Notes under the pieces: generated by a model
The model's database searches: none
The model's input: the letters and a program-made list of their open reading frames with translations, nothing else
Told to the model about the DNA's origin: nothing
Origin: a virus
IMG/VR virus record: IMGVR_UViG_3300025121_000079
Span: 1 to 45,077 of that record
Length of the DNA stretch: 45,077 nt
Strand: one strand, 5' to 3'
Made by a program: the position numbers and the translations under genes
Shown here: piece after piece, positions 8,959-38,768 of the stretch
Layout of the letters: every line of letters begins with the position of its first letter
How positions within the stretch are numbered: position 1 is the stretch's first letter

Positions 8959-9136
8959 TATTTTTCTCCTTCATAAACTGGTAAATAGTTACTCCACTTT
9001 TTTCTTTCCACCCTAATCGTCGGGCGTGGGATCTTACACACCCCTGGGTACAGTATCCAGCAATCTCCGTACTGGAATCCCTAAAGTTATATTGAAATCC
9101 ACAACCTTTACAAGTATTCGTTGGATGTTCAAGCAT
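8951..9136 (-). CDS. zinc-finger protein, 61 aa
   Basis: CKGC at residues 9-12 and C-x3-C/C-x-H candidates at about 29-37 form a zinc site. Basic central part. RBS GAGGGGAGGTAGCC, 8-base overlaps on both sides. Function unknown. Confidence 0.75.
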   Translation of the reverse strand: MLEHPTNTCKGCGFQYNFRDSSTEIAGYCTQGCVRSHARRLGWKEKSGVTIYQFMKEKNNA

Positions 9137-9452
9137 GGCTACCTCCCCTCTTCATCGGTTTCTGATTTCCAATCTTATGTAAACCACATCTAAATACGGG
9201 ATCCAGTGTAGTGGTATACCATTCCCCTCGGTACTTGAATGCCCACTGATCAGCCCCCGGAGACACTGGCCTACCTGTACGAGTTACAACCTCCTTCAGT
9301 TCCCCATTCTCACCGTAAATGGCGATGGGCATATTTTCTAATCTTGTTGGTTCATTCCATTCCCCCTTGGTAACCAAACGGGATTTTGGTAGGGAAACTT
9401 TGAATTTCTTTTCCGGTTGGCCGTAAATCTTAGGAACAGCGATTTCTGGCAT
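9129..9452 (-). CDS. hypothetical protein, 107 aa
   Basis: Beta-rich sequence with a GENGELKEVVTRTGRPVS segment and a FKYRGEWYTTTLDP stretch. RBS is only a GGGGG run. No recognised domain. Confidence 0.75.
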   Translation of the reverse strand: MPEIAVPKIYGQPEKKFKVSLPKSRLVTKGEWNEPTRLENMPIAIYGENGELKEVVTRTGRPVSPGADQWAFKYRGEWYTTTLDPVFRCGLHKIGNQKPMKRGGSHA

Positions 9453-9466
9453 GAAGGCCCCCTTTA

Positions 9467-9625
9467 TTAAGATTTGAATTCATATACTTCTACAATTTCA
9501 GAACTATTGTATTCTACTTCACTAAAAGGAAAACCATTGTTTTCAAATTTTTCTCTCGCTTCTATTTCAGAATTTGCTTCTACCTCAACGCTTTTCCTTT
9601 CATCCCAAACAATGGTAAATTTCAT
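9467..9625 (-). CDS. hypothetical acidic protein, 52 aa
   Basis: ATG at 9625 sits in a TAATG overlap with the upstream stop, after AAAGGAGAAAAA. The sequence (MKFTIVWDERKSVEVEA start, then an EIEAREKFE helix and a YEF end) has the look of the small beta-alpha-beta proteins common in phage early operons. Function unknown. Confidence 0.75.
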   Translation of the reverse strand: MKFTIVWDERKSVEVEANSEIEAREKFENNGFPFSEVEYNSSEIVEVYEFKS

Positions 9626-9819
9626 TATTTTTCTCCTTTGATAATATTTTTCATATCCTTAGCATAATCAGGCATTTCCTTTTCCAATTCTGCAGTAGCG
9701 TCCCTATACCTACATTTATGGCCATCTGACCATGGTAGTCCCGTTGGATACTCTATGGACATAACTTCCATTCCACAATTGGGGTCGGTACATTTCCACC
9801 ATTTATATTCTTTTGTCAT
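9625..9819 (-). CDS. zinc-ribbon protein, 64 aa
   Basis: CTDPNC and a later HKC form a rubredoxin-like metal site around residues 10-36. Overlaps the upstream gene by 17 bases; RBS GAAGGGAATAT. Function unknown. Confidence 0.75.
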   Translation of the reverse strand: MTKEYKWWKCTDPNCGMEVMSIEYPTGLPWSDGHKCRYRDATAELEKEMPDYAKDMKNIIKGEK

Positions 9820-10099
9820 ATATTCCCTTCTTTGCGTCAGATATGGTATCTTTGATAGATTCTATTAATTCTTTATCTTGGTTTGGGTACACGTCCGTCT
9901 CTATACGATGCAAAGCATCTTCAAGTAATTTCAACATCGTTGGAGCCTCTTTAATCAAATTGGAATACTTATCAAAAAGTGGATTTCTCTTGTTTCCCTC
10001 TTCATAGGGTTGAAAACTAACTTTAGCAATTCTTTCTCCCTTGTTATCATTAATTCCATGTCCGTCAAATCTCCAAGGGGCATTATATTCATTACTCAT
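9803..10099 (-). CDS. hypothetical protein, 98 aa
   Basis: The N-terminus (APWRFDGHGINDNKGERIAKV) followed by a helix (LLEDALHRIETD) is a layout found in many unnamed phage proteins in which a small beta sheet recording 'remaining days' type motifs precedes a helix; I cannot assign a role. RBS GGGAGAGAAAAA, ATGA-coupled upstream. Confidence 0.8.
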   Translation of the reverse strand: MSNEYNAPWRFDGHGINDNKGERIAKVSFQPYEEGNKRNPLFDKYSNLIKEAPTMLKLLEDALHRIETDVYPNQDKELIESIKDTISDAKKGIYDKRI

Positions 10100-10344
10100 T
10101 TTTTCTCTCCCTTTTCAGGGGCGTCGCACCCCTTGGCCGATTCCTCATCAGCAGAATACTTTCTGAATTGACTCATTTTGAACGTAGTTATTTCAACTTT
10201 ATACCAAATAAATATAGAGAATGCTTCATCGCATCCACCAATTTCATTATCACAACGAACTATTTTTGTTTCCCCGTGGTCTCCCCCTACCCTTTGTTCT
10301 ACCCCACAATATGGGCATTCTATTTTTTTGTATAAAATAGTCAT
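10096..10344 (-). CDS. zinc-ribbon protein, 82 aa
   Basis: CPYC at residues 10-13 and a C-x6-C (CDNEIGGC) pair give a four-cysteine ribbon, followed by beta strands (FSIFIWYKVEITTF). RBS GTGGAGGAAAAATC; ATGA-coupled on both sides. Function unknown. Confidence 0.78.
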   Translation of the reverse strand: MTILYKKIECPYCGVEQRVGGDHGETKIVRCDNEIGGCDEAFSIFIWYKVEITTFKMSQFRKYSADEESAKGCDAPEKGEKK

Positions 10345-10568
10345 GATTTTTCCTCCACATTACAGGCTGAACAAGGGCAATCGGATGTTAGAATGATTGT
10401 TCCATCCTTTACAAAACCTTCCCAACATTCCGGGCAAAGAGTTTGGTCAGCCCTAGTTTCACTTTGATATTTTTCAACGTAATGCATATAATTATAATCT
10501 TGAGTTTTCTTCCCACACTCATCACATTCAAATTCTGGAATTCCTGGATCATTCAAATTAGTAGGCAT
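10341..10568 (-). CDS. multi-zinc-ribbon protein, 75 aa
   Basis: Three cysteine pairs: CDEC, CPEC and CPCSAC. The first two form a ribbon around residues 15-49; the last is C-terminal. RBS AAGGAGGATAAATA. Function unknown. Confidence 0.75.
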   Translation of the reverse strand: MPTNLNDPGIPEFECDECGKKTQDYNYMHYVEKYQSETRADQTLCPECWEGFVKDGTIILTSDCPCSACNVEEKS

Positions 10569-10787
10569 TTATTTATCCTCCTTGTTTTTAATTGGGCAAC
10601 ATAATGCTATTGCTTCTCCGCTTACAAACATTTCATTTTGTTGGGGGTCAGTTTTTACTTCCATTTCCATTCTACATATAACGCAAACAGAAATTTGCCA
10701 AGTAATTCTACCTTGGAATCTATCCATTATATGCCCCCGAAACTTTGCGGCTTCTCTTGCATAAGTTCGGAGGGTAGATATTTTCAT
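10569..10787 (-). CDS. hypothetical protein, 72 aa
   Basis: Basic helical N-terminus and a central C-x2-C (CVIC). RBS AAAAGGAGAATAA; ATGA-coupled to the lipoprotein gene upstream. Function unknown. Confidence 0.75.
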   Translation of the reverse strand: MKISTLRTYAREAAKFRGHIMDRFQGRITWQISVCVICRMEMEVKTDPQQNEMFVSGEAIALCCPIKNKEDK

Positions 10788-10999
10788 TTATTCTCCTTTT
10801 GAATATGATGGTCAGGAGCAACCCTATCTCCCAAAAAGTTGTTATCCATTCTGTTGATAATATCTTCATTACTTTCTTGAACGAAAGGAACATTATCAGT
10901 AACCCATACTCCTTGCATAGTTTGTTCCTCTTTGGATTCCTCATATTCCCCACATCCTAACAACATAGGTATGACGATTAACAATGTTAATTTTTTCAT
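10784..10999 (-). CDS. small lipoprotein, 71 aa
   Basis: The N-terminus (MKKLTLLIVIPMLLGCGE) is a short signal peptide ending in a lipobox LLGC, with Cys16 as the predicted lipidated residue. The mature part is acidic and short. Phage lipoproteins act in the outer spanin role (Rz1) or as superinfection-exclusion factors; the early operon location favours the second, but this is inference. RBS GGGGGAGGGAAT. Confidence 0.8.
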   Translation of the reverse strand: MKKLTLLIVIPMLLGCGEYEESKEEQTMQGVWVTDNVPFVQESNEDIINRMDNNFLGDRVAPDHHIQKENK

Positions 11000-11562
11000 A
11001 TTCCCTCCCCCTTGAAATTCTTTTGTTCATGATAATGATCTATCACTGATTTGGCTTCCCCTAAAGCATTCTTTTCAGGATCTCCGTAGAATCCCCAGCA
11101 AGAATCTACGTGTTCCCCATCTTTTTCAATTACATACCCATAAATATTTCCTGTTAGATAGTTATCATATTCTTCTACTTCTGCTTTCAATTGTTTAAGT
11201 ACTTCATTAATTAATTTTTTGGTAATACGTTTAGCATTAAAATTCTTTTTAATATCTTCATATCTAACAAAGATATATCCTACTTGGCCAGAATCCCATG
11301 GGCAACTAAATCCGGTAGTATTCATAGTAATTCCAGAATGATCGTACAAGTAGAGTGGTAGGGAAAGTACGTCTTTTCTCTTGATCAAATCTTCTATTTC
11401 TTGAATACAATATCCGTGTCGATCTCCCAACTGATACTTACGATGCCAACAATACATGGCACCAAGATTGTCCCATTCCCGAGGGGAAGTAGGATTAACA
11501 TCTTGGTAAATTTGAATATCAAAACCTTTGTATTTCTCTTGATAAATAGAGTTATTTTTCAT
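10996..11562 (-). CDS. conserved phage protein with FSCPWDSGQVG motif, 188 aa
   Basis: The central motif (SLPLYLYDHSGITMNTTGF, then SCPWDSGQVGYIFV) is highly conserved in a phage family that I recognise by motif but that has no established function. The region after it is helical (KRITKKLINEVLKQLKAEVEEYDNY split) and a C-terminal WGFYGD segment follows. I choose the ATG at 11562, which overlaps the upstream gene by 11 bases; the frame is open to 11670 but that extension lies inside the upstream gene. The ribosome binding site is weak. Confidence 0.8.
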   Translation of the reverse strand: MKNNSIYQEKYKGFDIQIYQDVNPTSPREWDNLGAMYCWHRKYQLGDRHGYCIQEIEDLIKRKDVLSLPLYLYDHSGITMNTTGFSCPWDSGQVGYIFVRYEDIKKNFNAKRITKKLINEVLKQLKAEVEEYDNYLTGNIYGYVIEKDGEHVDSCWGFYGDPEKNALGEAKSVIDHYHEQKNFKGEGI

Positions 11563-14885: not shown

Positions 14886-15332
14886 TTAGGCGACCTTTGT
14901 GAACTTGTCCCCGTCCTTGGTCATGTAACCCATCCCGACCAGGAACTGCACCGCGAACTGAGCCACCGCCTTGGCTTCCTTCGGGTTGTTGGCCTTCTCG
15001 CTGGCCTTCTTCGTGGCGTAGAGAGAGTTGGCTCCGTCCACGATCTCCACCATCGTCAGAGGAGCCGTCATCCCCTTGATGAATTCGGTGGTGGCGTCCG
15101 CACGGCTGTATCCCGGAGTCAGACCCGCAGCCTTGGCCGCAGCCTTGGCCGCCTTCTCCGCTTCACGAGCCGCCTTGATCTCATCCTTCAACTTCTTCTC
15201 CTGAGCCTTCAGTGCCGCGACCTGCGCTTTGATTTCTTCCTTCGTCATGATTTCGCCCTCCTTCGGGGTGGGTTCCTTGGTCCCTTGAACCAAGGTCAGG
15301 TTGGATTTCATTGAACGCTCTGCTTTCGCCAT
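14886..15332 (-). CDS. probable abundant DNA-binding-type protein, coiled coil plus small helical domain, 148 aa
   Basis: Start at 15332 follows GGAGGGAATGT; an upstream in-frame ATG at 15353 has a poorer context. Residues about 25-70 are a Lys/Glu/Ala-rich coiled coil (KAQEKKLKDEIKAAREAEK), then a linker, then a C-terminal domain of about 80 residues that ends in a wing-like hairpin (GYMTKDGDKFTKVA). Codons are strikingly C/G-ending compared with the AT-rich neighbours, as in the capsid gene, which fits very high expression. It is a clear paralogue of the rightward 134-aa protein at 22607. A role as nucleoid-like or regulatory DNA-binding protein is inference. Confidence 0.85.
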   Translation of the reverse strand: MAKAERSMKSNLTLVQGTKEPTPKEGEIMTKEEIKAQVAALKAQEKKLKDEIKAAREAEKAAKAAAKAAGLTPGYSRADATTEFIKGMTAPLTMVEIVDGANSLYATKKASEKANNPKEAKAVAQFAVQFLVGMGYMTKDGDKFTKVA

Positions 15333-15353
15333 ACATTCCCTCCGTTCAAACAT

Positions 15354-17103: not shown

Positions 17104-17784
17104 TTAACGTTCGTTGGGACCCATCGCCTCTTGAATTCCCTCGGAGAGTTGGGCTTTCCTCTCCGCGTTGATGGCTTTGTAATCGTATCCCGGATTTTTC
17201 GTATCCATGTAGTGAAGCAGCCACAGGAAGGGATTTGTCTCCCATTTCTTCAAAAACTCTCCTACGATTTCCATCCTTTCCAAAGTGCGAATGAATCCCT
17301 CCCTTGTATCTACGGAAGTTCCCAAAAATCTAGAATGACCCGTACCTCCCCCATTAATACGAAGGGAATACCTATTTGGTTCTTGCCCTTCATATACTAA
17401 CCAGTTGAAATACGCCGTGGAACTATTTACTTGGTTTACAAAAGTATCAAATTTCACTAGAATTGATTTCTTTTTGTTCCAGAAGAAATACAAATACTCC
17501 TGAACAGGTTCATCCTCGTACCCCCTCCCCATAAATGGGATCGTAAGAACTTTTTCAAACCCATTCATGATTAAAATAGCACTGAACTCTCCGATTTCCA
17601 TTCCATAGTAGGTATCATTGAATTCTTTGAGAAGTTTTCTTTTATGTTTATTAACATTCAAAGCGATTAACATACCAAGACCGACGGTTTTCTCATCATT
17701 ATGAGAATCTTTTTTAGAAATTTTCTCCGCCATATCCAGAGGATCGGCAGCAAGCAATTCGTCTAACAAGTCTCTATCGTCCAT
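17104..17784 (-). CDS. hypothetical protein, 226 aa
   Basis: An acidic N-terminal region (DRDLLDELLAADPLDMAEKI) precedes a longer mixed alpha/beta domain with a central hydrophobic strand set (YLYFFWNKKKSILVKF) and a GGGTGHSRF loop. The layout resembles unnamed phage regulatory or replication-accessory proteins. RBS GAGGAGAGAAAGGA. No family assigned. Confidence 0.8.
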   Translation of the reverse strand: MDDRDLLDELLAADPLDMAEKISKKDSHNDEKTVGLGMLIALNVNKHKRKLLKEFNDTYYGMEIGEFSAILIMNGFEKVLTIPFMGRGYEDEPVQEYLYFFWNKKKSILVKFDTFVNQVNSSTAYFNWLVYEGQEPNRYSLRINGGGTGHSRFLGTSVDTREGFIRTLERMEIVGEFLKKWETNPFLWLLHYMDTKNPGYDYKAINAERKAQLSEGIQEAMGPNER

Positions 17785-17799
17785 TCCTTTCTCTCCTCG

Positions 17800-17991
17800 T
17801 TAAATGTTCGCTCCTACAGGATCTTCTCCATTTCCATAATACCGATCAATCCAAGTCGATTTCGGCTTCTGAGGATGACATGTGGTTCCATACACTCTAC
17901 CTCGGCCATAGTACCGAACAGGGGTACCAACTTCCAGATACGCTTTACATTCCTTACAAAAGGCCGGAAACTTCAACCGGATTTTCACCAT
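17800..17991 (-). CDS. small zinc-binding protein, 63 aa
   Basis: Start at 17991 chosen for GGGAGGAAAGCA. A CKEC pair and a later CHPQ provide a metal site; the middle (YYGRGRVYGTTC) is a beta hairpin. Similar 'CRxCgxxIxxGxxVRYYGRGRVYGxxCH' proteins are common in phages and probably bind DNA or protein; function unproven. Confidence 0.8.
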   Translation of the reverse strand: MVKIRLKFPAFCKECKAYLEVGTPVRYYGRGRVYGTTCHPQKPKSTWIDRYYGNGEDPVGANI

Positions 17992-18154
17992 TGCTTTCCT
18001 CCCCTGTGGATTTGATGAACAGGATAGCATTATGAAATTGCTTCAGAAATCTTTTTGCTTGCTTGGAATTCATCTTTGGGGATCGGACATTGGTAAATAT
18101 TACAAATCTCCCCTTGGTAAATCGGTTGAGGATGACTTCTTGAGTGCTATTCAT
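17954..18154 (-). CDS. hypothetical basic protein, 66 aa
   Basis: Overlaps the downstream gene by 38 bases. A GAGGGAG motif lies about 11 bases before the ATG. Basic, with a KQAKRFLKQFHNAILF helix. The overlap and spacing make it less certain than its neighbours. Confidence 0.6.
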   Translation of the reverse strand: MNSTQEVILNRFTKGRFVIFTNVRSPKMNSKQAKRFLKQFHNAILFIKSTGEESNGENPVEVSGLL

Positions 18155-18303
18155 TTTACTTTTTTCTCCCTCTTTTCAATTCTGGCAACCTTGGCCAAAA
18201 GTTGCTTCACCACTCCAGGCTGCTTGTTAGAACGAGCAATCCTTATCTGATCTCCTAATTCAGTAAGCACCCTTGCATTTTTCTCCCTCAAAGTTTCTTC
18301 CAT
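18151..18303 (-). CDS. hypothetical basic protein, 50 aa
   Basis: The ATG at 18303 follows AAGGGAGGTAAGGTG; the open frame to 18402 lies in the preceding gene. Helical and basic (KVARIEKREKKVK end). Function unknown. Confidence 0.65.
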   Translation of the reverse strand: MEETLREKNARVLTELGDQIRIARSNKQPGVVKQLLAKVARIEKREKKVK

Positions 18304-18307
18304 CACC

Positions 18308-18517
18308 TTACCTCCCTTTTTCTTTTGGTAATTCCGTCTTCCCAGTGATATGATAATAAAGAAGAAAATCAAACGCTTCCCTTTGAAGGTTGAACGTACC
18401 AATAATCCGATCCGTTTCCCATACCTGGGGAGCGTTGGGGAAGAGTTGCCTCATCTCCCCCTCCGCTATCACCCAGGGTTTGTGGACACGGGAACCTTCA
18501 TATTTGATTTTGATCAT
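18308..18517 (-). CDS. hypothetical protein, 69 aa
   Basis: Start at 18517 (GGAGGAAACGGG before it, ATGA overlap with the upstream gene). The frame continues upstream to 18766 through other genes and is not used. Contains a TGKTELPKEKGR C-terminus and a central IIGTFNLQREAFDFLLYY segment. Function unknown. Confidence 0.7.
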   Translation of the reverse strand: MIKIKYEGSRVHKPWVIAEGEMRQLFPNAPQVWETDRIIGTFNLQREAFDFLLYYHITGKTELPKEKGR

Positions 18518-19249: not shown

Positions 19250-19542
19250 TTCCCTTCTCCTTGGTCCTTGTCTTTTTCGATCCGATTCTCCAACGAATGA
19301 TATTCTTCGTAAACTTTCCAATACAACTCGGTGGTCCACCAATTTCCCTTTTCATCTTGGGGCTGGAAAAGCCCCGCTTTGGAAAGAACGTAGAGAACTT
19401 CATTCACATCCTCTAAACCGAACAGAGGCTTTTCCACGCAATCTTGAAATACTTCGGGGATAAAGTCCATTTCTACGTCGCTTTCTTCGTAGGAATCGTG
19501 AAAGATAATTCCTATGATCTGATCTACTTTTTTCTTATCCAT
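19246..19542 (-). CDS. hypothetical acidic protein, 98 aa
   Basis: Acidic, with helical segments; begins KKKVDQIIGIIFHDSYEE. RBS GGGGGTGAAATAAA. Function unknown. Confidence 0.75.
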   Translation of the reverse strand: MDKKKVDQIIGIIFHDSYEESDVEMDFIPEVFQDCVEKPLFGLEDVNEVLYVLSKAGLFQPQDEKGNWWTTELYWKVYEEYHSLENRIEKDKDQGEGK

Positions 19543-19573
19543 TTTATTTCACCCCCTTTCATTTATGACGTAT

Positions 19574-19702
19574 CTACCTACCTACCTGCAACCATCGTTC
19601 CGGTAGAGGTTCCCTTTTGGAAAAGAAACCCCTCGTCGCAAAGATGGTTATATTTAATCTTCCGTCCATCCCATCTCCCCGGTTCCGGGCCACACCGTTC
19701 AT
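19574..19702 (-). CDS. possible small gene, reading frame uncertain, 42 aa
   Basis: The ATG at 19702 follows GAAAGGAGAA and overlaps the upstream stop as ATGA, so translation initiation here is likely. The product of this frame is Arg-rich and looks unlike a protein, whereas the +2 frame in the same stretch reads more naturally (KIKYNHLCDEGFLFQKG), suggesting a frameshift near the start or a sequence error. Confidence 0.4.
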   Translation of the reverse strand: MNGVARNRGDGMDGRLNITIFATRGFFSKREPLPERWLQVGR

Positions 19703-20091
19703 TTCTCCTTTCTTTCTTCCTCCAATGGAGTTATTTCCGGTTCCCCATTTTCTTCGGCTTTACTTCCTTCCAAATTGTAAAGATTAGTAACTACCGAATC
19801 CAAATTACTTTTCGCCGTAGTCGATCCATTACTACTTAGTCCTAACGATGTATGGCAATGAGAAGGTCCACATCTGGATTGGCGTCGAATCGCGCTTGAT
19901 ACCGATTTGGACGGGGATTTTACGATCTCCGTCCAATAATTCGTTTTCCCCAAACTAGCCGTAAATCCCATCGTCTTTACTACATCCTCTTTTCTTGGTT
20001 CGCAATCTCCACAAACTCTAAACTTCCTCCCGATATGTTTGGGATGTTTATCGCTAAATTCGCTTCCACATTCTTTACAAATGATTAACAT
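19699..20091 (-). CDS. zinc-ribbon protein, 130 aa
   Basis: N-terminal CKEC (5-8) and CGDC near residue 27 form a zinc ribbon; the rest is low-complexity, Ser-rich and then acidic (SKAEENGEPEITPLEEE), so probably disordered. Function unknown. ATGA-coupled to the downstream small frame. Confidence 0.75.
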   Translation of the reverse strand: MLIICKECGSEFSDKHPKHIGRKFRVCGDCEPRKEDVVKTMGFTASLGKTNYWTEIVKSPSKSVSSAIRRQSRCGPSHCHTSLGLSSNGSTTAKSNLDSVVTNLYNLEGSKAEENGEPEITPLEEERKEK

Positions 20092-20107
20092 TTTGGTTCC
20101 CTTTTTC

Positions 20108-20524
20108 CTATCGGGTTAAAGAACCAAGAATAACTTCTCCTAAATAACCATGGTAATCGCCCTCGGAATCTTTTTCCGTTCCGACGAAAAACCATACATC
20201 TCCCTCCGGGGAAAAGGAGTAGGATTCATTTTCGTCCCCTTCGTCCTCCTTAAAACCCTTTATTTCGAGAACGATAACGAGATCATTACGACTTTCGGCC
20301 CATTCCGGATTTAAGTCCCCGCGAAGAACATTTCGAAGGTTAACGGCGTAGTCCACTGCGATTTCCGCCGAGGAAAAAGTCCCTACCATAAAATTTTTAT
20401 TACCATTATAAAGATTTACGGAGAAAACGGAATTGAAATGCTTTCGTTCGTTTAGGAAATCTACCAAATCCGTTTCGGAGTTTTCTTTCTTTTCAAAATT
20501 AACTTTTACTTTTACTTTTTCCAT
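20108..20524 (-). CDS. hypothetical acidic protein, 138 aa
   Basis: ATG at 20524 follows GGAGGGGAATGAG; the frame continues to 20578. Begins with a Lys/Val strand (EKVKVKVNFEKKE), with alpha/beta sequence and a strongly acidic middle (KEDEGDENES). Glutamine is absent, an early sign of the CA/TG depletion that deepens to the right. Function unknown. Confidence 0.78.
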   Translation of the reverse strand: MEKVKVKVNFEKKENSETDLVDFLNERKHFNSVFSVNLYNGNKNFMVGTFSSAEIAVDYAVNLRNVLRGDLNPEWAESRNDLVIVLEIKGFKEDEGDENESYSFSPEGDVWFFVGTEKDSEGDYHGYLGEVILGSLTR

Positions 20525-20571
20525 CTCATTCCCCTCCGTTTTAGTATGAACCAAAAGTTTTTTTTCTCCCC

Positions 20572-20766
20572 TTAACATTGATAGCAGATTCCGTTCGCGT
20601 CCAATTCGGCCTTCCGTTTACATTTGGGGCAAAAAGAGTATTCGATACCTACCTCGCCATTCTCTCGGGAATCCTCCCCGGATTCCAGTTTCTCCTCTAA
20701 CTCGCGGATTTTCATTTCTAATTCTTCGATTTCCATTTGGAGCGTTTTACTTTTCGGTGGTTCCAT
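20572..20766 (-). CDS. coiled coil plus zinc-ribbon protein, 64 aa
   Basis: ATG at 20766 chosen after AGAGGAAAAAGAAA. Residues about 10-34 form a Glu/Leu coiled coil; the C-terminus carries CPKC and CYQC (zinc ribbon). It would overlap the upstream gene by 20 bases. Function unknown. Confidence 0.68.
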   Translation of the reverse strand: MEPPKSKTLQMEIEELEMKIRELEEKLESGEDSRENGEVGIEYSFCPKCKRKAELDANGICYQC

Positions 20767-20902
20767 TTTCTTTTTCCTCTTTTTTGATTCCACAGCGAAG
20801 GATAAAACTTTCGAAATCAGACGAAGGATTTTCTACGGAATAAATCAGTTTTCCGTTCCGGTAAAAACTGAATTTTTCTCCTACTTTCCGGTACGTTTCC
20901 AT
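20747..20902 (-). CDS. hypothetical protein, 51 aa
   Basis: ATG at 20902 follows AAAGGGGAAGGGAA. Short basic/acidic product with a strand pair (KFSFYRNGKLIYSV). Overlaps the next gene by 20 bases. No family. Confidence 0.65.
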   Translation of the reverse strand: METYRKVGEKFSFYRNGKLIYSVENPSSDFESFILRCGIKKEEKENGTTEK

Positions 20903-20927
20903 TTCCCTTCCCCTTTATTTTATTTTG

Positions 20928-21329
20928 TTAGACTCCGTACTTTCTAATATAATTGATATCAAAAACCGTTCCTTTCCCTCCTCGTTCCTCTTCGAAACCA
21001 TTCTTTCTAAGTTCGGCCCTCGTTGGAAAGGAATAAAAACCGTCGAGGTAATGTAAACAACTTTCTTCGGTAGAAAGACTTTTGGTTAAGGAATAAACCG
21101 ATTCCCCCACAAAAAACTCGAAAATTACTACGGAATCGGGGTAACTCGTAAAACGATGGACTCCGTTTATCGTCCCGGAATAAATGGAAGCGTTACCGGA
21201 AGAAACTAATATTCTACCATAAAAACCGCCTTTCTTTTCTTCCAAAAAGTATCCGGCTCTAATACCTTTCCATTTACTTCGGTCTACTTCTAACTTTTCC
21301 AATCTTTCCTTAAGAGTTCTTTTATTCAT
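20928..21329 (-). CDS. hypothetical protein, 133 aa
   Basis: Starts after GGGAGAAGGAA. A basic N-terminal helix (KRTLKERLEKLEVDR) is followed by a beta-rich domain with aromatic strands (SVVIFEFFVGESVYSL). It lacks Gln and has only one Met, one Trp and one Cys, in line with the local CA/TG scarcity. Function unknown. Confidence 0.78.
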   Translation of the reverse strand: MNKRTLKERLEKLEVDRSKWKGIRAGYFLEEKKGGFYGRILVSSGNASIYSGTINGVHRFTSYPDSVVIFEFFVGESVYSLTKSLSTEESCLHYLDGFYSFPTRAELRKNGFEEERGGKGTVFDINYIRKYGV

Positions 21330-21347
21330 TTCCTTCTCCCTTTCGTC

Positions 21348-21431
21348 CTAAAGGACGAAGATTAGAATTACGAACATCCAGAAAGCTCCGGCGATTAAAA
21401 CCATCGTTCCGATCTCTTTCGCGGTTTCCAT
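21348..21431 (-). CDS. tiny single-span membrane protein, 27 aa
   Basis: The ATG at 21431 has an excellent RBS (AAAGGAGAAGAAA). The product is METAKEIGT followed by one hydrophobic stretch (MVLIAGAFWMFVILIFVL). It is the first gene of the leftward operon. Its stop codon lies inside a 7-bp inverted repeat (TTCGTCC/GGACGAA, 21342-21359). A leader peptide or a small membrane effector are both possible. Confidence 0.6.
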   Translation of the reverse strand: METAKEIGTMVLIAGAFWMFVILIFVL

Positions 21432-21440
21432 TTTCTTCTC

Positions 21441-21481
21441 CTTTCCCCCCGGAATTTGGTTTAAAGAGAAACCGGGGAAAG
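21441..21481 (-). promoter_or_regulatory. leader hairpin before the leftward operon
   Basis: CTTTCCCCCCGG (21441-21452) and CCGGGGAAAG (21472-21481) are inverted repeats flanking a 19-base loop. In the leftward transcript this stem ends directly before the Shine-Dalgarno of the 27-aa gene, so it could affect translation initiation. A second GC-rich hairpin (CGCCCG/CGGGCG, 21487-21506) lies just upstream. Confidence 0.45.
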
Positions 21482-21520
21482 TTGGTCGCCCGATCCCGTC
21501 CGGGCGGATATATCGGGGAT

Positions 21521-21526
21521 ATTATA
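21521..21526 (-). promoter_or_regulatory. candidate leftward promoter, -10 TATAAT
   Basis: A perfect TATAAT on the minus strand about 95 bases before the 27-aa gene. No TTGACA-type -35 box is possible in this CA/TG-poor DNA; the expected position reads TAATAC. A second TATAAT lies 25 bases upstream. Assignment is tentative. Confidence 0.4.
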
Positions 21527-22082
21527 CCCTAAAACCGAAACGTGTATTATATAGTTTATAAGTATCGGATTTATAAGGGGATTTTCTAATCTATATACCC
21601 TATAAACTTAGGGTTCCTTTATAACCTATCGAATATAAACGGTTTTTCGTCGCGGCTTTTATCGTTATAAGTACCCGAAATATAAGGGGAAAATATCGAA
21701 TTATTTCGGCCAGAAACGTTCGTTATAGGGTACCTTGGGCGTTACCTACCTAAAACGTACTTGGTCCAGACCTATCTAAGCGTACTTGGCTGTATACCTA
21801 TATTTTTTTCGTTTTGGTTGGAAATTTTTCGAAAATTATTAGTAAAGGTTACCGTTTCGTAATCGTTTTATAAGGTAAAATGTTTCGATAGGTAATACGA
21901 TATTTTATAGAATAAAACGAATAATAGGAAAAATTATCGGCCTAATTTTGTTTATAAGGCATTTTCTTTCTTCGGTAATAGGATATACGGGATATTTATA
22001 AGTAGGCGAAAAATAACGATTTCCCCGCGTTCTATTTTAAAAGATCGTCGTTTATAGGTCGATTAAATACGGCGAAAAACCG

Positions 22083-22346
22083 TTTATTATCGAATAGTTA
22101 TAGAGAAAAATAAAGTATATAAACGAATAAGGATATAGATTAGATAAAATATCCCTTATAATTCGGGTAGTTATAGGGTATAGATAAACGGAAACGAATA
22201 TATAGGACGGAACGAATAGCCCTTTATTATTAAGTAGTTATAAAGTAGCCCTAAGACTATCTACCGGATAGAGTATTATTTCCCTTTTATTATCGAATAG
22301 TTATAAGCGATTCTAATTCCCCTTTATAATTAAATAGATACGAGGG
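22083..22346. repeat. five imperfect iteron-like repeats
   Basis: Five copies of a 20-26 base element related to TTTATTATCGAATAGTTATA lie at about 22083, 22153, 22220, 22283 and 22319, with centre spacings of about 72, 68, 63 and 37. The first and fourth share 20 identical bases (22083-22102 and 22286-22305). Several copies end in CCCT...AGGG arms that make them weak inverted repeats. Iterons like these often bind replication initiators or regulators. Confidence 0.55.
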
Positions 22347-22579
22347 AAGAAAAACGAAAATATATTTTCTATCCGAAAAGGGAAATTCTATAAATATCCG
22401 AATCTATTACCGTTTCGGGAATAGGTATAAACGGGGTACCAGTTTAATATTTCCCTTTCGTTTTTAATTCTTTTCCGGTATCGTATAGGTAGATAAAAAA
22501 CGTTCCTTTAAATCCGATTATAAAGGCGCCCCCGAATTAGAACCGGACGGAATCCCTTACCGTACCGGAACCGTTAAAA

Positions 22580-22592
22580 GGGGAATTACCCC
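22580..22592. promoter_or_regulatory. short palindrome before the 134-aa gene
   Basis: GGGGAATTACCCC is an interrupted palindrome 15 bases before the ATG at 22607, in the position of an operator or RBS-blocking stem. A TATAAA-like -10 (22529-22534) lies upstream. Confidence 0.35.
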
Positions 22593-22606
22593 GGAAAGGT
22601 TAGAAA

Positions 22607-23011
22607 ATGAAAACCGAAAAAAGTAAGGCGGAATTAATCGCCGAATTAAACGATCTCCGTTCCGCTATCGACGCGAAGAAAGCGGAGCGAAAGAGTCTCG
22701 CGGAGAAGGAAAAGACTCTCCGCGAATCCGCGAAAAACGCCGGGATCGTACTTTCGGAAACCTTTACCCGTTCCGAATCCGTAGCGGTCGCGGTTTCTTC
22801 CCTCTCGAACGGCGAACCGTTCTCCCTCTCGGGAATCGCGGAAAAGGCGAATCGGATATTTATCGAAAGGGGAAAGAAGAATAACGGGAAGGAGTCCGAA
22901 ACCGTTTCCCGTCTTCTTCTTCCGTTCGCGGTATCGATCGGACTCGTAGAGAAAACCGGAAAGGACTCTTACCGGTTCGTTAGTCCGGTCGCGGGAAGGA
23001 AAGTAGCGTAA
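22607..23011 (+). CDS. paralogue of the 148-aa protein, coiled coil plus small C-terminal domain, 134 aa
   Basis: The only rightward gene in the control region. An N-terminal coiled coil (about residues 5-50) leads to a C-terminal domain that aligns with the C-terminal domain of the leftward gene at 14886 (AN...K...A..FAV..G...K.G..YRFV pattern). Apart from its ATG, the 405-base reading frame contains no TG and no CA, so the protein has no Gln, His, Cys, Trp or second Met. It lies next to the iteron-like repeats and ends in a strong terminator, so a role as DNA-binding regulator or replication factor is plausible but unproven. The Shine-Dalgarno is weak (GAAAGGTTAGAAA). Confidence 0.8.
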   Translation: MKTEKSKAELIAELNDLRSAIDAKKAERKSLAEKEKTLRESAKNAGIVLSETFTRSESVAVAVSSLSNGEPFSLSGIAEKANRIFIERGKKNNGKESETVSRLLLPFAVSIGLVEKTGKDSYRFVSPVAGRKVA

Positions 23012-23033
23012 AGAAAATTCGAGAGTAAGACGA

Positions 23034-23067
23034 ACCCTCCGGACCGAAAATCCGGAGGGTTTTTTTA
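23034..23067 (+). terminator. intrinsic terminator of the 134-aa gene
   Basis: A 10-bp perfect stem (ACCCTCCGGA at 23034-23043 with TCCGGAGGGT at 23051-23060), a 7-base loop and an 8-T run. It ends the CA/TG-free transcript. Confidence 0.9.
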
Positions 23068-23139
23068 TTTCCGAAAATAAAAGTAAAACTGTTATTAGAT
23101 TGATCCCGTAATCAAACAAAAAAAGTAGAAAATAAGACA

Positions 23140-23345: not shown

Positions 23346-23939
23346 CATACGGGATATCCCTATACTGTAAGGTAATTATTACAGATTTCCCGATAACAAT
23401 CGTCAATCTCATTCCCCAAATATCCTCTCAGATTGATCAGTGTCATATCTAACTGAACGGGATATGGGAGATGGTGAAATAAGTCAACTGAATCAATCCT
23501 CGTTATCATATGATATGGATATACTACTGGTATGGGGATAGGGGGGAGAAAATCCCCCAATGGTCGATACCCTTTCCCTCTCCCCACCTTCTGAAATTTC
23601 TATTCACTTTGAAATTTTAGTTTTATATTATGATATCATTTCCTATATCTTACCCCATTTACCCCCACCTTCTGAAATTTATCTCCATTTTCAAATTTTA
23701 ATTTTCCTTTTACCCCACTCTTATAGCCAATTTACCAATATCAAGACGATAATATGATTACTATCGACTAAATTACTTTTCAGATACCATTTTCATAATT
23801 TTTTTAACTTCTCCCCTTCTCTGCGGGGGATTTCTATGGTTATGATATGATTTCAAGAAAAGAAGATTGATTCTAATGGCTTATTATCGGGTTCAATTAG
23901 AAAGGGCATAGTTTCCCCTATTCCGGTTAACTAAATTGA

Positions 23940-25431: not shown

Positions 25432-25899
25432 ATGGTAATTCCTGAACTTGCTTATACAGAAATGGACGCTGGAAAACTTGTTCTCGTTTTGGCTAAGGCT
25501 GGCCTAACGAATAGTGAGATTGCCGTAGCTATTGGAATGACCCCCAGTAAATTTAGTAAGATGCTTCAAAATTATCCTGATTTTTGGGAGATGTTGAACG
25601 ATGCTAAGGAAGATCCTAACGGTAAGGTGGAGCAAGCTCTTTTCAAGAGAGCTTTAGGATATCAAGTTAAAGAGATAATTCAGAAAGCTGGAAAACCTGT
25701 TCAAGTCACTATTAAGGAGTATGCACCTGACCCCGTAAGTTGTATATTCTGGTTAAAGAATCGTTCTCCGAAGAGATGGCGAGATGTTATTGAGATGAAA
25801 CATACGTTGGCAGATAGAATGTCTCGCGCCCATGAAGCTGTAGCAGAAAGAAGTCGCGGGATGTTATCTGATGGAGAAGGGATAGGAGCGGAAGAGTAA
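25432..25899 (+). CDS. terminase small subunit-like protein (phBC6A51 type)
   Basis: The middle has a helix-turn-helix (LTNSEIAVAIGMTPSKFSKML), then a segment (FKRALGYQVKEI and KEYAPDPVSCIFWLKNRSP with KRWRD) typical of the phage terminase small-subunit family related to phBC6A51. At 155 aa the length fits. The protein would recognise phage DNA at the packaging site. It is unusual that the large subunit lies 10 kb downstream, so I call it terminase-small-like on sequence alone. Confidence 0.8.
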   Translation: MVIPELAYTEMDAGKLVLVLAKAGLTNSEIAVAIGMTPSKFSKMLQNYPDFWEMLNDAKEDPNGKVEQALFKRALGYQVKEIIQKAGKPVQVTIKEYAPDPVSCIFWLKNRSPKRWRDVIEMKHTLADRMSRAHEAVAERSRGMLSDGEGIGAEE

Positions 25900-30196: not shown

Positions 30197-32019
30197 AAAA
30201 ACTGTCGCTTATAATCGCTCTCTTGTTTCTTCCGTCAATATCTAACGCCATCCTACCGGATTGCGAACGGGCTACGGTTGCTACTGCAATATCGTCCGCC
30301 ATTGATAACGACACGATAGAGTGTCCGGCGGGTGAAGTGACATGGGCAACATCCGTGACGCTGGATAAATCAATTACGCTAAAGGGGGCAGGTTCCACCA
30401 GCACTATTATCAATTCTACCGGCACCGCTATAACCGTCACGGGGGCAAGAGTGTTTACCATTACGGGATTCAAATTCGTTGGAACAGGATCGGGACAGAC
30501 GACCGGGTTCATCCTTAATCAAACCACGTCAGCAGGCTGGAGAATACATAGTAATTGGTTTTATAACGCAACCGGAAGAAGCATTTATGTTGGAAGCGAC
30601 ACGAACGATGTAGTTAGTGGACTTATCGACAACAACATATTTACGCAATTAGTTGGTGTAACACAACAAGGTGTTAGCGTTACTGGTGCAGCGAGGCATC
30701 CTGAGGGGTTTACTGCAAGAGAGCGCAACTTCTTGGCAGATATGGGCACAGATAATGCCGTCTATATAGACAACAATACGTTCAACTTTTACGATAGGTC
30801 TGATGGGGCATTAGATACTGGCGGCGTTGCGAGAGTGGTGTTCCGACATAATACCGTAAATGGTACGAATATCGGTACGCACGGCACTGACTCGGGATTT
30901 CGGCTTGGCCCTGCCTATTACGAGATTTACAACAACACATTCACCGGGAAGGGCGAGGGAGCGGCTTCTCCGCTTGGCGCTGGTTACTGGATCAGGGGTG
31001 GTACGGGTGTCATTTACAATAACACTATTTCCGGGACATTTAATCTTAGCGGTTGTGGTGCGTATTGGTGCTTTGCTACGTATAGGGCGGTTGGAGCAGA
31101 ATCGTGGAGCGGAGCATGTGACGGAACGGACTGGAAATTAAATTCCCCGAACACGCTATCTGAAACCGGTACGTATTCTTTCTGTTCGGTGACGCGAGAC
31201 AGGCCGTGTACTGAAGAGGGGAACTGCCCTGGCGGGGAGTCCTGCAACACCTTCTTCGATGAGAACAGCGCGAATGGATACCCCTGTCGTGGTCAGGTCG
31301 GAGTGGGACCGAATCAGACCTCCGCGCCCGTCTACATTTGGGGAAACACCTACGACACAATGGGGGTCGGTGCGGGCGGAACAACGTATATAGAGAACGG
31401 GCGGGATGTAATTAACGATGGAACCCAGATGCCAGGTTATACCGCCTACGACTACCCGCATCCTCTTACTGGTTCCGTCGATGTGGTCCCCTCCGCCTTC
31501 TCCTTCGGCGCGGACGTAACCGGCGCGGAACTGTCCACGCTTACCCCCTCCCCCGACAACGTGACCGTCGCGGGGATCGACGCGGGGCAGACGCCAGCGA
31601 TCACCGTCAGCGGTACGGGGTGCGAGTACGCGATAGACGGCGCGGCGTTCACCGCCGACGCGGGAACCGTGGGCCTCGATAACGTGGTGGCGCTGCATAC
31701 AACGTCCTCGGCGTCCCACAACGCAACGATCTCCTGCACCGTGACCATCGGCGGGGTGAGCGATTCGTGGGGAGTGAGGACGGGGGCTGAAAGTGTTCCT
31801 ATTTTAATATCTCCTTCTTCTGGATCAGGGGGGATTTCTAGACCCACTACCCTTACTTGGGGAGCGGTTATAGGAGCAATATTATATAATCTCCAAGTAG
31901 CTACTGATAGGGAGTTTACCAATGTTGTTGTAGATGTTGAAACAGAAAATACTAGTTTTGAGGTAAATACTTTGGCTCCTTCTACCAAATATTATTGGCG
32001 AGTAAGGGCAAAGCGTTGA
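30193..32019 (+). CDS. exported right-handed beta-helix protein with fibronectin-like C-terminus, 608 aa
   Basis: Signal peptide ([17 protein letters not shown]). Residues about 25-290 show the spaced Asn/Gly/hydrophobic repeats of pectate-lyase-type beta helices. A cysteine-rich insertion (residues about 295-385) is followed by a GC-rich Val/Ala segment and, from about 535, a fibronectin type III-like domain ([20 protein letters not shown] to [12 protein letters not shown]). Such helices bind or cleave polysaccharides in phage tailspikes, but a signal peptide suggests export. The stop codon lies at a TTGA overlap with the next gene. Confidence 0.82.
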
Positions 32020-33635
32020 GTTGGGTAGATGATGATGGAAATGTTTGGGCAGATGATGAGGGATATGTTTGGGCAGAATCCCCATCTACATCTCCATCGG
32101 CCTCTCCTTCTTCATCTCCGTCAGGATCTCCTTCTGCTAGTCCTTCTTCTAGTGTAAGTTCTTCTCCAAGTTCTAGCCCTTCTGAATCCCCATCTACATC
32201 TCCATCGGCTTCTGAGTCTCCAAGTCCATCAGCTTCTCCAAGTGAGAGTCCGTCAACTTCAGCTAGTAGTTCTCCATCAGAATCTCCTTCTGCTAGTGAG
32301 TCCTCAAGTCCGTCTGCTAGCGAGAGTGCTAGCCCTAGCACTTCTGAATCTCCGTCACCAAGTGCTTCGGAGAGCGGTTCCCCTTCCACTAGCCCTTCAG
32401 AATCTCCCTCAACAAGTCCCAGTGAAAGTATTTCATCTTCTCCCTCTGCATCAGAAAGTGCATCTCCTTCTTCTTCTCCATCTTTAAGTCCTAGTGGCAG
32501 TGAATCTGCTTCTCCTTCTATATCTCCTTCTGAATCTCCGTCAGCCAGTTGGGGTCCTTGGACAAGTCCTTGGTCTTTCTCTACTTCAAGTAGTTCTTCC
32601 CCATCAGCATCTCCTTCGGAATCGCCTTCAGTTAGTGAATCTTCTTCCCCCTCGGCATCTGAAAGTGGTAGTCCTTCTATCTCTCCTTCGGAATCTCCGT
32701 CAATTTCTCCATCTGCCAGCCCTAGTGAAAGTGTATCATCCTCTCCATCAGCGTCTGAATCGTTAAGTCCTTCAGCATCAGAATCGTTGTCCCCTTCTGT
32801 TTCTGAAAGCGGTTCTCCTTCTGCTAGTGAATCTCCAAGTCCTTCGGCTTCTGAGTCTTTTTCTCCTAGTGCATCTGAATCCTTAAGTCCTTCGGAATCT
32901 CCTAGTGAATCTCCTAGTGAAAGCCCTAGTGCCTCAGAATCTCAATCTATTTCAGCAAGTCCTTCCGGATCAGAAAGTCCTTCTCCTTCTGCTTCAGAAT
33001 CTGCTTCGGTGTCTGCTTCTCCATCTATATCCCCTTCTGGATCTCCATCTTTGGGATCTAGTGAAAGCGCGTCCCCTAGTGCCAGTGAAAGTCCTTCCCC
33101 TTCGGCAAGTGAATCTTCCAGTGTATCTAGTTCTCCCAGTTTATCTCCGTCAGAATCTCCTAGTGAATCTCCGTCTGCTAGTTCATCAATATCAGAATCT
33201 GCTAGTCCTTCGGCTTCAGAATCTCTCTCACAGTCTGCTTCTCCGTCTGAATCTATTTCAGCTTCTCCTTCTATTTCTGAATCACAGTCTCCTTCTGCTT
33301 CTCAATCTGCAAGTGAATCTCTTTCTCCTTCAGAATCACCTTCTGCATCAGAGTCTCTGTCTCCGTCAGCTAGTGAAAGTGTTTCACCTTCTGCTTCCCC
33401 ATCTATTTCAGAATCATCTTCCCCTTCCGTTTCGGAATCTGCCTCTATTTCATCCTCCCCGTCTATATCAGAAAGTGCTTCTCCTAGTGTTTCTCCTAGT
33501 GGTAGTGAGTCTGCTAGTCCTTCTGCTTCTCCTTCAATATCTCCGTCATCTTCTCCAAGTGCAGAGATTCCAGCATCTCATGAATACATAGCAAAACGTA
33601 GGAAACGAGCATACATAGCTAGACCCCGAAGGTGA
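32016..33635 (+). CDS. mucin-like Ser/Pro-repeat protein, about 540 aa
   Basis: From about residue 20 to 520 the protein consists of degenerate SPSASPSES-type repeats (Ser about half of all residues, with Pro, Ala and Glu). The N-terminus has two acidic Trp motifs ([17 protein letters not shown]); an interruption with Trp/Phe ([11 protein letters not shown]) lies near residue 180; the C-terminus is basic ([15 protein letters not shown]). Start is uncertain: TTG at 32016 overlaps the previous stop as TTGA; a TTG at 31995 is also in frame; a -1 frameshift from the previous gene is possible. Ser/Pro stalks like this are typical O-glycan acceptors or extended spacers. Confidence 0.8.
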
Positions 33636-36014: not shown

Positions 36015-38768
36015 ATGGGAGATTTGATTTTAATTCGTGGCAAGGGCGGCAGAGGAAAAGACGGAGGGGGAGAGAAGCCCCCTTCAAATCCTACTCCTAT
36101 GCGTCCTCGTAAACCTATTATTCGTAGTAGTGATATAAAACCATTTATAGAAGATCCTTCAATAGACCCTAATTTAATTAATTTAATTGATTTGCCCCTA
36201 CCATTACCAATTCTTCGTAAAGAAATTCAGAGACAAGAAGCTCAAAATCCTGTGGAAAAAGAAATAGATTTGATGAAGAGATATAAAGAAAAACCTCTTC
36301 TATTTTGGAGAGATGAATTAGGTATCCCGATTGAAGGATGGAGGGATGATAAGCCTCCTAAAGAATGGAAACCTGGAGATCCTGTTCCTCTTTGGAGTAA
36401 ACAAAGAGAGATCATAAAAGCATTAGTAGAGCATAGAAAAGTAGCTGTCAAGTCTGGACACGGATTGGGAAAAACGCATCTTGCTGCAGGAATTACTCTT
36501 TATTTAGCTTATGTATGGCATGCAACAGGGATGACTACTGCCCCCTGTTTTGATAAAGAAACAGAAATTTTGACCGATGGTGGATGGAAGTTTTTAAAAG
36601 ATTTGACGGGGGAAGAAAAAGTATCCCAATACGATCCCATCACAGAGGAGATGACTTTTGTAAAACCTTTGGAATATTATAAGGTTCCGTACAAGGGAAA
36701 ACTTTTGGGAATAAAGAATCAATTGGTAGATGCTTTGATGACCCCAGATCATAGATGTTGGGTTAAGATGAAAGAGACTCGTTGGGGGGATAAAGAGTTT
36801 GGAATTAAGTATGCAAAAGATATTTATAAGAATGGTAGTTGGAGAGTTCAAAAATCTGTTAAATGGAAAGGGCAAGAATCTATATTTAGTAAAGATTGGA
36901 TGGAATTTTTGGGATTTTGGTTTGCTGAGGGTAATTGTGGTTATCATCCAGAAAGAGGTTCTTATAACGTAGGGGTTACTCAAGCTAAGCCGCAAAATAT
37001 ATCTTATGTGGATGATTTGTTTAGAAGAATAGGGCTTCAAGATAAAGTTAAGAAAAAGAAACGTAAAAAAGATGATTGTTACGATTGGAATATTTATTCA
37101 AAGGAATTAGCTGCTCAATTTAAGCCTTTTGGTAAATCAAAAGTCAGGTCCATCCCGCGTTGGATTTTGGAATTAGATAAAGAATATTTGGAAGCTTTTA
37201 TGCAAGGGTTTTGGATGGGAGATGGCACTTCGGAAAAATATTCCGAAGAGACTAAAAAGGGGGGTTGGTGGGCTTTAGCTACTTCTTCTAATCAGTTGGC
37301 CGATGATTTATTAGAAATTTGTGTGAAATTGGGTTGGGTAGCTAATAAGGCTGAATATAAATATAAAGGGGAAGCAGAAAGATTTGGGAGTGCCTACACC
37401 GTAAGTGTTTGGAAGAGGGGACACCAAGCTCAAGTCACTAGATATGATTGGTATGAGGTAGATTATGATGATTTTGTTTATTGTGTTAAAGTCCCTACCC
37501 AGTTGATATTGGTACGAAGAAAGGGAAAATATCATATAAGTGGAAATTCCTTCAGGCAAGTCAGACGCGCTTTATGGGGAGAGATTCACTATCAACATGT
37601 TCGTGCTCGTACCCCATTAGGCGGTAAAATGAATCAGGTTAGTTTAGATTTGGGACCTAAATGGTTTGTTGAGGGATTTGCCACTGATAAGCCGATGGAT
37701 AATATTACTGGTATTCATGAAGAAAATATTTTTGTAATAGTGGATGAAGCTGGCGGAGTTGCTCATAATGTATTTGAATCGTTAGATGCTCTTTTGACAT
37801 CGGAAAGTACGTTTGTACTTTATATAGGAAACCCTACTGATCCTACTAGTCCTTTTGCAGATGCTTTTAAACCAGGATCTGGTTTTAAAACTTTTACTCT
37901 TAGTTGTTATGATTGCCCCAATGTTCGTCATGATAGAATAATTTATCCTAAACTTACTATTAAAAAATGGGTAGATGAAAAGGCCAAGAAATGGGGGGTA
38001 GATTCAAATTTATTTAGAATTAGAGTTCTTGGAGAATTTCCGGAAGAGAGTAAAGACACTCTTATTCCAATTAGATATATTGAGAAAGCACTTGAAAAAG
38101 GTAGGGATGGTATTTTATTGCCAGATCATATTTATGCTTTTGGATTAGACGTAGCTCGTCAAGGATCTGATAGTACCACTTATGGAATACGATATAAATC
38201 AGGATTATTTAGAATTCATGAAGCTACTCAAAAGAAAAGAGAAACAGAAACAGCGGGGAAAATGATTTCTACTTATGATGAATTTATTCCGGAGTTTAAG
38301 TATAGGAATCTTAATGATTTAGAAAAAAAATTAAATAAAAATAAAAATGAAGATAAAGAAGAGATTGTTTTTCCTCCAATCAATGTAGATGATATTGGGG
38401 TTGGGGGAGGAGTTGTAGATATATTATTGGAGGAAGAGTATCCCACCAATGGAGTAAATGTTGCAGAACCTCCAGATTCTTCTGATCCTGACGATGCGAA
38501 AACTTTTCTTAATAAACGTGCTCAATACTATTGGAATTTAAAAAAGCTATTTGAAGCAGGACTAGTTGCTATAGACGATGATGAATTAGCTCATGAATTG
38601 TCTAAAATGAAGGTAGAGTTTCTTCGTAGCGGAAAGATTAAAATAGTGGATAAAGAAACGATTAAAAAGGATTTGGGGGGCCGTAGTCCAGATAAGGCTG
38701 AGTGTATGATGTTGGCTTTCTCTATGGACTATGCAGATGTAGAAAGAGAATTAGTGCGATTTCTTTAA
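36015..38768 (+). CDS. terminase large subunit interrupted by an intein
   Basis: The spliced protein would be 583 aa. Motifs: Walker A GHGLGKTH (148-155); the TAP[S] motif is split by the intein (TTAP | SFRQVRR); Walker B-like FVIVDEAGG (about 573-581); RuvC-like nuclease acids in FGLDVARQGSD (about D712), DDIGVGGGVVD (about 792-802) and DKAECMML near the end. This is the ATP-driven packaging motor and headful or site-specific nuclease. The intein (residues 178-511) is described separately. Confidence 0.93.
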   Translation: MGDLILIRGKGGRGKDGGGEKPPSNPTPMRPRKPIIRSSDIKPFIEDPSIDPNLINLIDLPLPLPILRKEIQRQEAQNPVEKEIDLMKRYKEKPLLFWRDELGIPIEGWRDDKPPKEWKPGDPVPLWSKQREIIKALVEHRKVAVKSGHGLGKTHLAAGITLYLAYVWHATGMTTAPCFDKETEILTDGGWKFLKDLTGEEKVSQYDPITEEMTFVKPLEYYKVPYKGKLLGIKNQLVDALMTPDHRCWVKMKETRWGDKEFGIKYAKDIYKNGSWRVQKSVKWKGQESIFSKDWMEFLGFWFAEGNCGYHPERGSYNVGVTQAKPQNISYVDDLFRRIGLQDKVKKKKRKKDDCYDWNIYSKELAAQFKPFGKSKVRSIPRWILELDKEYLEAFMQGFWMGDGTSEKYSEETKKGGWWALATSSNQLADDLLEICVKLGWVANKAEYKYKGEAERFGSAYTVSVWKRGHQAQVTRYDWYEVDYDDFVYCVKVPTQLILVRRKGKYHISGNSFRQVRRALWGEIHYQHVRARTPLGGKMNQVSLDLGPKWFVEGFATDKPMDNITGIHEENIFVIVDEAGGVAHNVFESLDALLTSESTFVLYIGNPTDPTSPFADAFKPGSGFKTFTLSCYDCPNVRHDRIIYPKLTIKKWVDEKAKKWGVDSNLFRIRVLGEFPEESKDTLIPIRYIEKALEKGRDGILLPDHIYAFGLDVARQGSDSTTYGIRYKSGLFRIHEATQKKRETETAGKMISTYDEFIPEFKYRNLNDLEKKLNKNKNEDKEEIVFPPINVDDIGVGGGVVDILLEEEYPTNGVNVAEPPDSSDPDDAKTFLNKRAQYYWNLKKLFEAGLVAIDDDELAHELSKMKVEFLRSGKIKIVDKETIKKDLGGRSPDKAECMMLAFSMDYADVERELVRFL
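36546..37547 (+). other. intein in the terminase gene, 334 aa, LAGLIDADG endonuclease
   Basis: Starts at Cys178 (CFDKETEILTDGGW, block A); MTPDH fits block B. Two LAGLIDADG-like motifs (LGFWFAEG and QGFWMGDG, acidic residues present) mark a likely active homing endonuclease. Block F is VYCVKVPTQLILVRRKG and block G ends YHISGN, so the penultimate residue is Gly instead of the usual His. The next residue is Ser. Insertion at the conserved TAP(S/T) motif means the enzyme cannot work until spliced. Confidence 0.92.

Follow-up and report, generated by a model that had tools for sequence, protein, structure and literature searches.

The window analysed here, the whole of a 45,077-base IMG/VR record from an unclassified tailed phage, contains a plus-strand open reading frame of 405 bp (22607-23011) with no CA and a single TG, that of its start ATG. 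It lies in the divergent region between a leftward operon and the late genes, which run rightward, at the GC-skew switch. The initial annotation had described one gene written without CA or TG, a framing that proved wrong: the gene merely sits within a CA/TG-free island of about 1.5 kb, most of it non-coding, in two blocks (21545-21705 and 21966-23089) that together hold only two exceptions, one at 22440 and one in the ATG of the ORF. The left block, which carries three minus-strand copies of a 26-bp element, has no CA (7.1 expected) and no TG (9.9 expected), and the non-coding part of the right block, upstream of the ORF (21966-22606), has one CA against 35.5 expected and no TG against 35.7. 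The blocks are separated by a 260-bp pocket (21706-21965) in which both dinucleotides are tolerated (CA 3 of 11.1 expected, TG 8 of 18.1). Pockets are also found in two relatives (L005, CA 3/8.6 and TG 18/20.3; L006, CA 4/12.9 and TG 10/16.5), and in the small sample formed by pooling all three CA is lower (10/32.6) than TG (36/55.0). The CA/TG-free runs measure 481 bp (22609-23089), 479 bp (21961-22439), 167 bp and 167 bp. Runs free of any other dinucleotide pair do not exceed 400 bp in the window; the longest, of 400, is that of CG, which occurs 1,463 times in the window against 4,603 for CA/TG.

The two sides of the island end differently. On the right, CA and TG reappear at 23090, about 20 bases beyond the T tract of an intrinsic-terminator-like hairpin of 12 pairs (23032-23069, plus strand). 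On the left, depletion fades over about 2 kb of the leftward operon (19500-21540, minus strand); read in the mRNA sense, successive 500-base intervals contain 18 CA plus TG of 61 expected, then 28/56, 26/59, 40/58 and 50/59, and thereafter 58 (expected 56-61). The first larger ORF of this operon (20928-21329, minus strand) is CA/TG-depleted. A 76-kb contig (G001) represents the left arm of the same phage and overlaps the window to about 23.5 kb, and the remaining roughly 100 kb of phage DNA read shows no such depletion.

Codon-shuffled controls, which the initial annotation had proposed, place the ORF far from chance. Its own codons, shuffled 20,000 times, gave a mean of 21.6 CA plus TG and a minimum of 9, and synonymous recodings with right-arm or left-arm codon usage (5,000 each) gave means of 41.4 and 39.0 and a minimum of 24, against the lone TG observed. 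The protein lacks Gln, His, Cys, Trp and internal Met, as had been noted; the absence of these five from 133 residues has a probability of about 5e-7. Neither the avoidance at codon junctions nor the set of missing amino acids can thus be put down to chance. The attribution of the pressure to nucleic acid also held, since the non-coding DNA flanking the gene, about 0.8 kb, follows the same rule, and it is further backed by non-coding DNA with different repeats in a distant lineage (G013) and by the codon junctions of neighbouring genes, both described below. A codon- or tRNA-level explanation was dropped because the non-coding DNA obeys the rule. Chance or the composition of one odd protein, for which we found no point in favour, is refuted by the shuffles, the recodings, the non-coding depletion, the islands of other lineages and the junction data, and we give it practically no weight.

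The 134-aa product of the ORF is predicted to consist of a coiled coil (a 38-residue helix, residues 7-44) followed by a winged helix (55-124). The AlphaFold2 model (pLDDT 81.7; pTM 0.56, from an alignment of only 4 sequences) shows the H1-S1-H2-H3-S2-S3 order of this fold, with helices at 55-64, 74-87 and 94-110 and strands at 71-73, 114-116 and 121-124. Among PDB entries, the model matches the winged helix of DpnI best in Foldseek (E 8e-3), and the DNA-binding domain of Rok ranks lower (E 0.065); the DpnI C-terminal domain and Rok share the predicted fold, with weak structural scores to the island protein. No sequence family was matched above its curated cut-off, searches of bacterial and archaeal genomes and of phages with the island protein gave no match, and Rfam and tRNA searches were likewise negative. 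Comparison with the sister lineage (dN 0.20, dS 0.75) indicates purifying selection on the ORF. From its fold and location, the product may bind the repeated 26-bp elements.

A paralogue with normal CA/TG content is encoded at 14886-15353 on the minus strand. The free use of Gln and Met ascribed to it earlier was borne out (five Gln and seven internal Met), with its coordinates and strand now corrected, as the plus-strand frame first given is not open. The paralogue has one Cys, no His and no Trp, so only Gln, Met and Cys are informative for the comparison. An unconstrained homologue that also lacked the five residues would have been at odds with a nucleic-acid cause; this one, in unconstrained DNA, has three of them. 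In the alignment, which had been suggested at the outset, Gln is replaced by Glu, Ala, Arg, Lys, Pro or Ser and Met by Leu, Ile, Val, Phe or Ala in the three island proteins, and eight aligned Gln and Met positions are replaced in all three. A third family member matches the winged helix through its C-terminal 68 residues (E 2.2e-7); its gene lies near a cluster of radical-SAM, NDP-sugar epimerase and DUF362 genes, and the same neighbourhood is present in G008-G012, G014 and G015 (hmmsearch E 1e-5 to 1.5e-13).

The 26-bp element is a near-palindrome, about CCCTTATATATCGGGTAGTTATAAGG, and a position-weight-matrix scan finds nine copies in the island. Four are minus-strand copies, namely the three of the left block, at 21554, 21617 and 21663, and a degenerate one at 21994-22019; the five plus-strand copies, at 22080, 22153, 22220, 22283 and 22320, span 22080-22345. 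Spacings are similar in a sister contig (L012). Pattern scans for the element returned eight viral stretches, five of them from this phage group (one being a sister contig cut within the island); the other three viral stretches and 11 bacterial stretches show no CA/TG depletion.

Islands of this kind were found in four lineages: the window phage (G000 and G001), its sister (L004 and L005, with G008 starting inside the island), L006 and G013. Identity of the island protein to that of the window is 72% and 51% in two lineages; that of G013 is remotely similar (profile E 5e-4) and is also found by hmmsearch with a family model that includes the G013 protein itself. Outside the pockets, the non-coding island of L005 (4140-4292 and 4531-5000) has 3 CA of 34 expected and 1 TG of 36, and that of L006 (3504-3667 and 3921-4508) has 1 of 33 and 5 of 43. 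In G013, positions 17579-18327 contain neither dinucleotide, with 42 of each expected, and CA/TG-free runs reach 750, 438 and 339 bp. This island contains a similar DNA-binding gene, different repeats and different non-coding sequence, which indicates that it is the absent dinucleotide, rather than the sequence, that is conserved; it also precedes a homologue of window gene 25432-25899 (E 3e-10), so that genome position is conserved as well. In all four lineages an island edge falls about 15-30 bp past a terminator (judged by eye on the alignment for L005 and L006); in G013, depletion (about 0.45) continues beyond the terminators and the opposite edge has no terminator. A conserved CA/TG-free island is thus present at the divergent control region of these tailed phages. 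No island was found in the other relatives read, G009-G012, G014-G018, G020 and G023, some of them read in part (G012, 40 of 42 kb; G015, 60 of 61; G016, 40 of 43; G018, 120 of 124; G020, 40 of 49; G023, 20 of 56 kb); several are fragments, and comparison with G008 suggests that G009 and G010 stop short of the region. A 217-bp CA/TG-free run in G011 proved to be a CCCGTT microsatellite. As a weaker second bias, AG/CT is also low in the islands of all four lineages (0.56-0.70 of expectation; 0.68 in the window group and 0.56 in G013).

The codon junctions of genes near the island bear the same signature. Within about 1.8 kb of it, in three lineages, junction CA falls to 35 of 72.5 expected (0.48) and TG to 51 of 115.9 (0.44), against 392 of 351.6 (1.12) and 585 of 625.2 (0.94) in distal genes of two lineages. 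If a single duplex DNA step is the target, CA and TG should be depleted equally at junctions, as they are. Near the island the values at codon positions 2-3 are 0.19 for CA and 0.72 for TG, a difference that follows from NCA codons having synonyms and ATG none. Raw counts in the leftward operon had hinted at stronger avoidance of sense CA than of sense UG, as under template-strand blockage, and this strand asymmetry was dropped because the junctions are equal. Measured against a maximum-entropy expectation with CA/TG forbidden, CG is raised 1.37-fold and TA 1.18-fold in the window-group islands, and 1.51-fold and 0.96-fold in G013; in the window group lost sites have therefore gone to both CG and TA, the pattern expected under avoidance.

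Several further features of these genomes were recorded. The right arm of the window carries genes for a terminase with an intein-like segment, for a portal/head-morphogenesis fusion and for a capsid/protease, and the leftward operon includes an ArdC-like anti-restriction protein (6201-7055; ArdcN and MPTase-PolyVal). Inteins or intein-like segments occur at window 36015-38768, L008:7420-11031, L009:2546-3775, and L061:7784-8965 and 8962-11229, interrupting genes for DNA polymerase A (Intein_splicing match), radical SAM proteins (Hint/intein matches), the sister's epimerase (by reading) and the terminase (PHROG matches); the presence of inteins in radical-SAM genes may mean that these genes are essential. 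DNA polymerase A (L008:7420-11031) has an N-terminal domain of the uracil-DNA-glycosylase superfamily (Pfam UDG, E 2e-22), and the same phage encodes ThyX (L008:14083-14838). A 672-aa protein (L010:6357-8375; phrog_1735) occurs in 514 records of a phage collection, phiCbK-like and ViI-like phages among them. Within the gene for a Ser-Pro-repeat protein (31995-33635), window positions 32001-33500 have an observed/expected ratio of 0.11-0.15 for AC and 2.1 for AG, a low-complexity effect unrelated to the island. G001 ends and G005 begins at window 23439-23566 with an overlap of about 127 bases, typical of an assembler break, in the 1.7-kb gap that separates the island ORF from the late genes.

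The island exceeds a single gene both in size and in strangeness, and its cause is unproven. The best reading, which we favour while judging it somewhat short of probable, is that the phage DNA is modified at TpG and that sites are kept out of the divergent control region used first. The mark would lie at TpG, which is CpA on the other strand, most simply as a post-replicative base modification, and would be placed by a phage-encoded system that includes a pair of SplB-like radical-SAM enzymes together with a winged-helix partner. At this step it would impede host machinery that is not prepared for it, chiefly RNA polymerase as it begins on incoming DNA. Three parts would have to be read before the phage alters the cell, namely the start of the leftward operon, the gene for the 134-aa winged-helix protein and the control elements; hence selection would act against every markable site in this first-read region, and the requirement would wane with distance downstream and end at the terminator. 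Support for such a mark comes from the total local exclusion of the step from coding and non-coding sequence alike, from its conservation in four lineages whose sequences have diverged, and from the combination of a terminator-bound edge with a gradual fade on the operon side. A mark would explain with one assumption why every site of one duplex step seems to count in the apparent divergent control region and first genes.

The radical-SAM pair, present in G001 and in six of seven radical-SAM-bearing relatives, counts in favour of a TpG mark through its proximity to a winged-helix domain of the island-protein family. Pair and partner are candidates for the marking machinery. By "SplB-like" we mean what we take to be the PA0069/Rv2578c group; the proteins do not reach the NCBIfam cut-offs for SplB-like families and match the M6 enzyme in BLASTP (E 1e-5), and their function is a superfamily guess. 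More tentatively still, the phages may possess a TpG-marking system built on these enzymes and on winged-helix readers, outside the known kinase pathway, the island being an unmarkable immediate-early "boot sector" that would enable host RNA polymerase to start on marked DNA; if so, a letter pattern betrays a hidden base mark together with its sequence specificity. Other observations count against a mark. The known 5-hmdU kinase and transferase families were not found in the phage-group records searched: HMUDK_hel was found in none of eight records, which may be fragments, nor in G008 (the same model detects phiW-14 and ViI), HMUDK_HMUD1 in none of seven phage-group records, again possibly fragments (the model detects M6), and ADDT in none of eight records in a search whose own controls gave no match (the model matches M6 gp051 as protein). 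ThyA was not found, and ThyX is present. The fully read genomes of M6, ViI, phiW-14 and SP-15, all thymine-hypermodified, contain no comparable CA/TG-free island, and G011, G012, G014 and G015, whose records may be partial, have the radical-SAM pair and no island in the bases read. The G013 depletion past its terminators and the terminator-less edge also speak against this reading, as does PMC11550810, which reports that hypermodified thymines affect T7 RNA polymerase in mostly positive or mixed ways.

Among the alternatives, we consider it unlikely that the island is a mutational scar needing no benefit, left by a locally targeted process that turns CA/TG into CG or TA, for example a modifying enzyme brought in by the winged-helix protein, or a process linked to transcription. 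The fading of depletion with distance from the element arrays would fit such erosion, as would the excess in the window group of CG and TA, into which transitions convert CA/TG, yet one deaminase-like chemistry should yield a single product, whereas both rise there and only CG in G013. Nor would a diffusing mutator be expected to stop sharply at a terminator. The replacement of eight aligned Gln and Met positions in all three island proteins, with the protein under purifying selection, also speaks against erosion. A replication origin or partition site, with the repeats as iterons and an initiator, helicase or primase that needs CA/TG to be absent (e.g. so that there are no primer sites or marked bases), appears quite unlikely. 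The near-palindromic arrays in two orientations, the GC-skew switch and an encoded O-like initiator, DnaB-like helicase and primase would suit it; the skew switch, however, tracks gene orientation equally well, the edge tracks the terminator, the depletion takes in the 134-aa ORF as well as some 2 kb of the operon, and the repeats of G013 differ.

It is improbable that early transcripts are evading ribonuclease cleavage at CA and UG. The island, the ORF and the operon start may all be transcribed, but two equally strong RNA specificities would be needed where the equality of CA and UG at junctions is natural for one duplex DNA step, and the ban covers both the element arrays, probably promoter or operator DNA, and some 20 bases beyond the terminator. 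The predicted coiled coil and winged helix, with the Rok domain among the weak Foldseek matches, would agree with an architectural protein spreading from the elements and excluding the flexible CA/TG step for packing or bending; we regard this nucleoprotein constraint as very improbable, because the complete loss of one step while the other pyrimidine-purine steps, TA and CG, stay abundant is too strict for a mechanical preference.

We recognised no description of such islands in the open-licence literature (PMC). Near-complete, conserved local loss of one dinucleotide across coding and non-coding DNA is a fingerprint of some mark or agent that acts on DNA with sequence specificity. Should it be a base modification, the genome sequence alone would reveal that a phage is modified, which step is modified and which region is read first, offering a route to hidden DNA chemistry in uncultured phages. 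In M6, ViI and phiW-14, thymine hypermodification prefers T in TG or TC, according to PMC6449724, a likeness to the proposed TpG mark. The radical-SAM gene of M6 lies near kinase and transferase genes, whereas no HMUDK or ADDT was detected in the phage-group records searched. In SP-15, a 228-bp CA/TG-free run is a tandem repeat (L034:3772-3997), and the divergent intergenic region before a sigma-factor gene (KT624200, 76107-76604) is mildly low (CA 10/24, TG 20/36), reaching 0.39 in 300 bp against 0.51 for the lowest of five base-shuffled genomes. Fungal RIP causes local loss of CpA/TpG with gain of TpA, producing only TA and wrecking genes; in the island CG also rises, and the ORF has stayed open under purifying selection. 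Restriction-site avoidance is likewise a local avoidance of motifs in first-used DNA, as in phage T5, whose first-step-transfer DNA is site-poor, but here a two-base step is nearly absent from a stretch exceeding 1 kb, and amino acids have been replaced as well.
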